NCBI GenBank assembly: GCA_902800055.1
Contig: CADCCW010000017.1
Location: 1-42,177 of the forward strand
Reading direction: 5' to 3'
DNA: 42,177 nt
Source of the DNA: an uncultured bacterium
GTDB taxonomy: Bacteria > Verrucomicrobiota > Kiritimatiellia > RFP12 > UBA1067
Shown: positions 1-719 of the stretch, one piece after another
Layout of the letters: each line of letters starts with the position of its first letter
Numbering within the stretch: position 1 is the first letter of the stretch
Notes under the pieces: generated by a model
Database searches by the model: none
Seen by the model: the letters and a program-made list of their open reading frames with translations, nothing else
Told to the model about the DNA's origin: nothing
Position numbers and translations under genes: made by a program

Positions 1-157
1 AAGTCCCAGAGCGCGGATAGGAGATGGACATCACCTGCTTTCGCAACCAGCGGCATCGCTCCGCGATTGGCCCTTGACAATTGTTCTCATAGGAGATTAT
101 GGTGCGGATGAAATCTTAGTCCTGCGCATATCCGTCGCAAACACCGTATTTGTGCAT

Positions 158-239
158 AAAAAGGGCGCATTTCCATTCATGCACTCTTGGGTAGCCCTAC
201 CACAGGCTAGTTTGGAATACATGAAGAGGAAATGCGCCC
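158..239 (-). terminator. Rho-independent terminator with a competing antiterminator
   Basis: On the minus strand the arm 239-228 pairs perfectly over 12 bp with 174-163. An inner 6-bp stem (225-220 with 181-176) and a small apical hairpin (209-205 with 196-192) continue it. TTTTT follows the last arm at 162-158. The same 239-232 segment can instead pair with 251-244 as part of a perfect 20-bp palindrome at 232-251, which would block the terminator. Confidence 0.6.
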
Positions 240-455
240 AGCTGGGCGCATCTCTGCTTACATGCCGTTCCAAACTTGAAATAGTGGTAGTATTTCCCAA
301 GAACGACGTGTAGCGTTGATGCTACATTGATGAACGTCTGGCGGGGTGTTCGCGGCGGCCGCGCGGGGCGCGGGGAGGCCTGACTACTTGCCCGTTTTCC
401 TGACTATCACCCCGCGCCGCGTCAGGAGGCGCCCGCCTCCCTAGCCTCGCGAGAT
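158..455 (-). ncRNA. structured untranslated RNA or attenuator leader, unclassified
   Basis: Seen: a minus-strand promoter at 462-470 predicts a start near 455, and a hairpin followed by five Ts ends near 158. Between them no start codon with a ribosome site opens a frame that ends before the terminator. Stems are dense: 425-430 with 435-440; 421-426 with either 399-404 or 379-384 (the octamer TAGTCAGG occurs twice on this strand, 20 nt apart); 309-314 with 321-326; 266-270 with 301-305 plus 278-283 with 291-296; 232-239 with 244-251; and 228-239 with 163-174. The segment below 330 has clearly lower GC than the flanking genes. I see no signature of tmRNA, SRP RNA, RNase P RNA, T-box or the common riboswitches. 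It is either a stable small RNA of about 300 nt or the leader of a gene lying left of the window. Confidence 0.5.
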
Positions 456-461
456 GGGTGA

Positions 462-470
462 ATTATACCA
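462..470 (-). promoter_or_regulatory. orphan extended -10 promoter
   Basis: Minus strand reads TGGTATAAT. Together with upstream bases it shares the 15-mer GATTTTTGGTATAAT with the tRNA-Arg promoter at 22545. There is no -35 match. No protein gene starts nearby on this strand, so it most plausibly drives the structured RNA at 455-158. Confidence 0.6.
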
Positions 471-719
471 AAAATCCCCGCCTCATTGGGCAGGGACTTC
501 CGCGCGGCGAGTGATGCCTCACAAACTGCCGCGGTCAATCCATGCGGAACATGGCGAGGCGGAGGGCGGGGCGTCGTCCCGACGACGTGATTCGAGACCT
601 AAGCGCGTTAGGAACGGAAGCGCGTTGCGGTCAGTGTCGAGAATCCCGAGCGAGGCACGTTAGGAGGCCGAGCGTTCGGCGGGGCGAGCGCCCCAGCCCG
701 ATGACGTGATTGAGCAGGA
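471..719. other. gene-free GC-rich spacer
   Basis: I find no convincing gene here. It holds two short hairpins, 572-577 with 582-587 and 681-686 with 689-694. Neither is followed by a T run on the minus strand, so neither is a clear terminator for the gene ending at 720. The short plus-strand frame at 454-663 has no ribosome site and no protein-like composition. Confidence 0.5.

Follow-up and report, generated by a model that had tools for sequence, protein, structure and literature searches.

The minus strand of the stretch analysed here (the window: 42,177 nucleotides, positions 1 to 42,177 of contig CADCCW010000017.1 in GenBank assembly GCA_902800055.1, from an uncultured bacterium of the Kiritimatiellia) carries, from position 476 to 158, a promoter and a leader RNA that together form a self-contained cassette. 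Comparison with relatives places it, as one copy among many, in what appears to be a family of RNA switches not described before. The reading that best accounts for the family, to which we give a probability of roughly 0.83, is that of a putative cis-acting transcription attenuator with complete strand exchange between two folds, placed before restriction-modification and surface genes. When fold 2 forms, RNA polymerase would stop at the U-run; when fold 1 forms, polymerase would read into the gene, and the choice of fold would set the expression level of the restriction-modification and surface genes. The sequence features expected of an attenuator are found: a promoter, a non-coding leader with a stem and U-run at its end, a gene on the same strand, and an antiterminator stem exclusive of the terminator stem, with both stems conserved.

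Promoter and extent of the leader

The 15 bases of GATTTTTGGTATAAT occur exactly at 476-462 and again at 22559-22545, upstream of a tRNA-Arg gene, a match for which about 0.01 occurrences are expected by chance. A preliminary description of this DNA, made from the sequence alone, had located this sharing correctly, as it had every coordinate that it gave, and had called the element a stable-RNA promoter. That label does not hold. In aligned copies from the genus the -10 box reads TTTTGCTATAAT, the ordinary -10 region there, and the promoter is therefore a generic strong one, not reserved for stable RNA. As described, no gene follows it within the window, where positions 92-1 are the end of an IS110-family element. 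The 305-nt minus-strand RNA folds 6.2 standard deviations below dinucleotide shuffles, and the terminator arms at 239-228 and 174-163 are indeed perfectly complementary and followed by TTTTT at 162-158. The stable-RNA-like promoter and the contig break had made an rRNA-operon leader a candidate. It was rejected: a search of the assembly for a 16S gene found none, the repeated 3' end is that of the IS110-family element, and the copies precede protein genes.

The first hairpin of the transcript, P1 (CATCCCGCG...CGCGGGG), is kept in most genus copies; distant copies lack it or have other small hairpins instead. A second switch had also been proposed, in which CCTGAC (426-421) would pair with either of two GTCAGG motifs (404-399 and 384-379). 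All three motifs are present, but the choice is peculiar to the window copy, since most copies lack the CCTGAC insertion and carry GTCCGG with CCGGGC or CCGGAC instead.

Table 1. Features of the leader cassette and its surroundings, in window coordinates
Feature	Position	Strand	Evidence
Promoter -10 region GATTTTTGGTATAAT	462..476	-	Exact 15-base match to tRNA-Arg promoter; TATAAT kept in aligned genus copies
5' domain P1, hairpin at transcript start	408..456 (456-448 with 416-408)	-	Computed fold
P3 hairpin TAGC/GCTA, antiterminator fold	311..324 (324-321 with 314-311)	-	94.5% of cells paired
P0, terminator fold, GCATC with GATGC	322-318 with 252-248	-	99.5% paired in genus
Strand 1, GTCGTTC	301..307	-	Near-invariant; both alternative pairings kept in >97% of cells
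Hypervariable segment a (partner a', 191-187)	296..300	-	0/2000 swaps as good as cis
Hypervariable 7-nt loop c, CTACCAC (partner c', 203-197)	284..290	-	0/2000 swaps; 13 alleles among 41 copies
Hairpin Pc, terminator fold, GAAATA with TATTTC, flanking c	296-291 with 283-278	-	
Hypervariable segment b (partner b', 215-210)	270..275	-	0/2000 swaps
Strand 2, GAACGGCATG; pairs with strand 1 (P4) or strand 3	261..270	-	Pair counts of both folds
P5 hairpin, GATGCGCCC (252-244) with GGGCGCATT (239-231)	231..252	-	Apex of antiterminator fold
Terminator stem P6 (239-228 with 174-163)	163..239	-	Perfect 12-bp arms
P6 continuation, strand 3 CATGTATTC with strand 4 GAGTGCATG	223-215 with 186-178	-	
P7, loop = c'	208-205 with 196-193	-	
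Segment c', GTGGTAG	197..203	-	Swap test and pair counts
Segment a'	187..191	-	Swap test and pair counts
U-run of intrinsic terminator	158..162	-	T-run at same place in at least 81/85 distant copies
Terminator to expected gene start	93..157	-	Homologous to leader of relative L034 up to 93
IS110-family insertion sequence end	1..92		Same end at contig ends C38 and C10

Two folds from one set of strands

Fold 1, the antiterminator, is one long hairpin in which CGTTC of strand 1 pairs with GAGTG (186-182) of strand 4, followed by a/a', c/c', b/b' and strand 2 with strand 3, under a P5 cap. In fold 2, the terminator, the two halves are separate: strand 1 pairs with strand 2 as P4, with Pc displaying loop c and P0 closing the half, and strand 3 pairs with strand 4 within P6, a stem of roughly 20 bp directly before the U-run. 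Positions 239-232 are common to P5 and P6. The earlier observation that this arm also pairs perfectly with 251-244, making the two stems mutually exclusive, was correct.

Fold 1 is carried by segments that vary from copy to copy and change together. Among 41 copies there are 32 alleles of a, 37 of b and 13 of c, and the mean cis pairing energies (-4.9, -4.2 and -9.0 kcal/mol for a, b and c) lie well below those of swapped partners (-0.9, -0.8 and -4.0 kcal/mol). For each of a/a', b/b' and c/c', 0 of 2000 permutations reached the cis value. Double changes number 18-27 in each of the a/a' column pairs (32-35 with 177-180) and 19-25 per variable column pair of b/b'. Over the whole fold, 97.3% of cells are paired, 20 pairs show double changes, and 229 cells are double-changed as against 67 in shuffles. 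The P5 cap is paired in 99.2% of cells, with 12/2000 swaps as the corresponding count. One leader copy (L035, before a UvrD-PDDEXK gene) has all of its a, b and c pairings broken and its P6 terminator stem intact; it may have decayed, may be a chimera, or may be fixed in the terminating state.

The terminator fold is maintained as well. In the genus, 93.3% of its cells are paired and the P6 swap test gave 0/2000. The fold-2 helices shared with fold 1 are nearly invariant there, as a double constraint predicts, and for that reason their covariation does not rise above shuffles within the genus. Distant copies supply what the genus does not: in 81 of them, found by a model containing no P6, the P6 energy averaged -29.0 kcal/mol in cis and -19.1 kcal/mol when swapped (0/5000), and in 85 of them P0 gave -9.0 against -6.7 kcal/mol (0/5000). 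These two tests are the strongest independent evidence for what appears to be selection on both folds. Compensatory changes in both alternatives, which the preliminary description had named as the support to look for, thus occur both in the long hairpin and in the terminator stem, and conserved pairing shows an RNA family whose two predicted folds exclude each other by strand exchange. A further hairpin just after the U-run (P8) was suggestive by eye in several copies and inconsistent when folded.

The same comparison bears on a DNA-level explanation, in which the cassette would be an integron-type site, a MITE or REP repeat or a cruciform, its palindrome kept by recombination and not by RNA function. 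The element is multicopy, contains a long imperfect palindrome, adjoins diverse accessory genes and occurs in mosaic copies. One of these, in the same genome (G000:C40:11079-11477; L002, L011 and L171), has a promoter and 5' domain 94% identical to those of the window copy and a strongly diverged core, which suggests that leader cassettes may recombine with one another. Against this explanation, the promoter and U-run are conserved at fixed places, a second, non-palindromic pairing scheme (P6 and P0) is independently kept, and the orientation toward the gene is fixed; an integron attC site fits poorly with an element that precedes its gene and carries a promoter and terminator. We regard a DNA-level element as extremely improbable. 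An invertible promoter was also rejected, as the promoter lies outside the inverted segments and inversion could not switch it.

Energetics and the choice of fold

Thermodynamic calculations, which do not describe kinetics, place the two folds close together. The energy of fold 1 minus that of fold 2 has a mean of -4.7 and a median of -3.7 kcal/mol, and 27 of 39 copies differ by no more than 6 kcal/mol; for the window copy the folds are equal within error (-72.5 and -72.3 kcal/mol). On thermodynamics alone, fold 1 is favoured in 39/41 copies, and termination therefore depends on kinetics or a factor. In minimum-energy structures of the nascent RNA, c/c' is already present when the terminator arm has yet to emerge. 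Because c sits in a 7-nt loop and c' in another loop, fold 1 probably begins as a c/c' loop-loop contact, from which it would then zip through a and b. In some copies a short terminator hairpin, GUGCAU/AUGCGC, is compatible with most of the long hairpin; through this coexistence the antiterminator may reduce termination without abolishing it.

What would choose between the folds of an attenuator is a separate matter. A metabolite riboswitch, for example one sensing SAM, would be a sub-case in which the fold is selected by a ligand bound to the 5' part. The terminator/antiterminator architecture suits this idea, as does the fact that many target genes encode SAM-dependent DNA methyltransferases. 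Yet few unpaired nucleotides are conserved phylum-wide, so that no aptamer-like conservation was found, the 5' domain of the genus is replaced in distant copies, the targets also include LRR, PEP-CTERM, acyltransferase and glycosyltransferase genes, and no Rfam riboswitch matches. The low conservation outside helices argues against a metabolite aptamer, which makes a riboswitch in this sense unlikely, and leaves protein binding, transcription kinetics, a trans RNA or stochastic choice. A ligand-free, kinetically bistable switch, made of tandem complementary hairpins with copy-specific barcode loops, is a tentative idea to which we give perhaps one chance in a few. If true, it would imply stochastic or phage-responsive expression of each restriction-modification or surface gene, RNA-level heterogeneity of defence across the phylum without DNA inversion or slippage, and variable a, b and c segments that insulate paralogous copies. 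Two comparisons did not establish insulation among copies of one genome: trans pairing energies were alike within and between genomes (-11.5 and -12.1 kcal/mol), and shared c alleles were only somewhat rarer within a genome (0.08 versus 0.17 between genomes).

Distribution across the phylum

Genomes of gut and rumen Kiritimatiellae carry the leader in many copies, and it is also found across the phylum. A BLAST search with window positions 470-1 matched 27 of 58 genomes (57 relatives and the source genome), and a single genome gave as many as nine matches. In named species genomes, a scan for exact patterns returned 96 stretches; the records listed are nearly all rumen or gut MAGs labelled Kiritimatiellae, Verrucomicrobia, Lentisphaerae, Victivallales or uncultured bacterium, and one record among the matches listed is labelled Bacillota. 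In about 40 aligned copies, a conserved -10 box is followed by a hairpin domain at the 5' end, a middle part that varies and a core of 190 nt, which ends at the U-run. Two covariance models extended this picture within the phylum, to which their searches were confined. A model of the core trained on the genus (R1) found the leader in 71/388 phylum genomes, other classes included, with E values down to 1e-15 and full-length alignment there. A model trained on diverse phylum copies (R2) found it in 153/388 genomes and 80/199 genera at E<=1e-4, mostly at full length, in a scan that scored at most six candidates per genome and whose weak hits may include chance hairpins. Distant copies retain the order of elements. 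The source genome has nine loci; a tenth R2 match is the palindrome on the opposite strand.

Known RNAs did not account for the family. None of the 4227 families of Rfam 15 matched the leader: at gathering thresholds the window yielded a tRNA alone, at E<=10 window positions 1-700 gave nothing relevant, and at E<=1 two distant copies gave nothing. The T-box model likewise failed to match at any of these thresholds. The Rfam and custom-model searches proposed at the outset found no known family and recovered an apparently new one across the phylum. No match to the leader came from phage, viral or plasmid sequences, and a literature search, which did not extend to preprints, found no description of this RNA. 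HEARO or omega-type RNA of IS elements was rejected, there being no Rfam match and no associated nuclease family before the copies.

Two further observations concern individual loci. A degenerate leader copy (L067) without the c'-a' region lies upstream of gatB in a relative. An intergenic repeat of about 148 bp occupies window positions 553-700; elsewhere this genome has five more copies of it, 90-95% identical, and one copy lies about 285 nt upstream of another leader (on contig C5).

Genes downstream of the leader

In 143 of 159 non-redundant copies, the start of an ORF of at least 100 aa on the same strand lies no more than 250 nt from the core. The dominant targets are restriction-modification genes of types I, II, IIG and III, followed by surface, glycosyltransferase and acyltransferase genes. 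Pfam counts, which are not additive as families overlap within proteins, were taken on the first genes. In close relatives (n=68) they were EcoRI_methylase 19, LRR_5 6, D12 methylase 4, N6_Mtase 4, and 2 each for C5 methylase, N6_N4 methylase, SacI endonuclease, UvrD/PDDEXK and ResIII; the four largest methyltransferase families make up about 29 of these 68 genes. In distant copies (n=77) they were ResIII 9, Mrr_cat 8, PEP-CTERM 6, N6_Mtase 5, acyltransferase 5, TSP3 5, N6_N4 4 and glycosyltransferase 2. PADLOC assigned first genes to type I, II, IIG, III and orphan methyltransferases and to restriction enzymes. As a control, 66 genes just upstream of the elements had no restriction-modification family among the top 25 families listed. 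In the source genome, the C40 copy precedes an EcoRI-type methyltransferase gene, the copy on contig C15 a trypsin-like peptidase gene, and five others proteins without a Pfam match. Nine leader copies (L034, L036, L037, L043, L052, L054, L059, L066 and L069) have two tandem EcoRI-type methyltransferase homologues downstream, possibly part of a multi-gene restriction-modification or other defence operon.

This placement weighs on the alternative, also raised in the preliminary description, of a free-standing, trans-acting stable RNA, about 300 nt long, that is multicopy, ends at the U-run terminator and has its downstream genes by accident. Its own promoter, strong fold (z -6.2), terminator and many copies per genome would suit such an RNA. 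A co-directional gene after nearly every copy speaks against it, as do the restriction-modification enrichment downstream, compared with none in the families listed upstream, and the presence of two strand-exchanged folds sharing a terminator arm, which is what a cis attenuator needs. We consider a free stable RNA very unlikely. For the attenuator, covariation in both folds and gene placement support the original proposal that the terminator and antiterminator hairpins of the leader exclude each other. Conserved placement before one gene family had been expected; the genes are co-directional and form one functional class, restriction-modification and surface genes, and not one family. Of the original interpretation the switch leader is supported; the second switch and the proposed start codon discussed below do not hold, and a metabolite riboswitch is not indicated.

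Relation to known regulatory systems

Leaders of the trp-operon type are intrinsic attenuators with strand exchange, in which 1-2/3-4 pairing alternates with 2-3. The present leader resembles them in its promoter, mutually exclusive hairpins, U-run terminator and a co-directional gene soon after. It differs in that no conserved leader peptide was seen, both alternatives are complete (1-2 and 3-4 versus 1-4 and 2-3), three hypervariable segment pairs co-vary, and the genes apparently controlled are for restriction-modification and surface functions, not biosynthesis. With riboswitches and T-box leaders it shares a terminator/antiterminator decision in a 5' leader that recurs before a gene class, but it matches no Rfam family and has no aptamer-like core phylum-wide. 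ColE1 RNAI/RNAII and CopA/CopT are kissing-loop antisense pairs of plasmid copy-number control. Here, too, there are 7-nt complementary loops, specificity in a variable loop and a presumed progression from kissing to full duplex; unlike in those pairs, the partners are tandem in one RNA and the outcome would be attenuation, not plasmid replication. RAT hairpins of the BglG/LicT type are protein-operated antiterminators. Leader hairpins in LoaP-dependent antitermination are reported to be protein-operated too (PMC12691694). Both systems likewise have an RNA hairpin overlapping or preceding the terminator, with a factor making the decision, whereas the antiterminator helix of the present leader is hypervariable in sequence. 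The element is thus an attenuator in kind. What is new, as far as our checks reach, is the family, together with the completeness of its strand exchange, its hypervariable segments that co-vary and the restriction-modification and surface genes that make up its regulon.

Restriction-modification and surface-modification genes are classic phage-facing, phase-variable classes, and the usual explanations for their control are C proteins and phase variation at the DNA level. A leader family of phylum scale before anti-phage restriction-modification systems of every main type and surface-modification genes, acting as an RNA switch that dozens of unrelated accessory genes have in common, would explain their control in another way. 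Its copy-specific co-varying segments also offer an unusually clean natural experiment on RNA strand exchange.

An IS110-family end beside the window copy

In the window copy the expected start of the regulated gene is occupied by the IS110-family end. Homology to the leader of a relative (L034, matched at G012:C17), whose gene encodes an EcoRI-type methyltransferase, stops at position 93. The homologous end in another relative (L049) adjoins a gene with Transposase_20 and DEDD_Tnp_IS110 domains; the family assignment comes through this neighbour, the transposase itself lying outside the window. An ATG at 31-29, earlier offered as a possible start, falls inside the IS110-family end and is not the target. 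We infer that the insertion disconnected the leader from a methyltransferase gene, or now separates the two; the gene beyond the IS110-family copy is predicted to encode an EcoRI-type adenine methyltransferase. The contig break at position 1 is caused by the IS110-family end. A short repeated motif, GATTTCATCCGCACCATAATCTC, precedes this end in the window and at C38 and C10, and also occurs near other leaders, as if it were a preferred target of the element.
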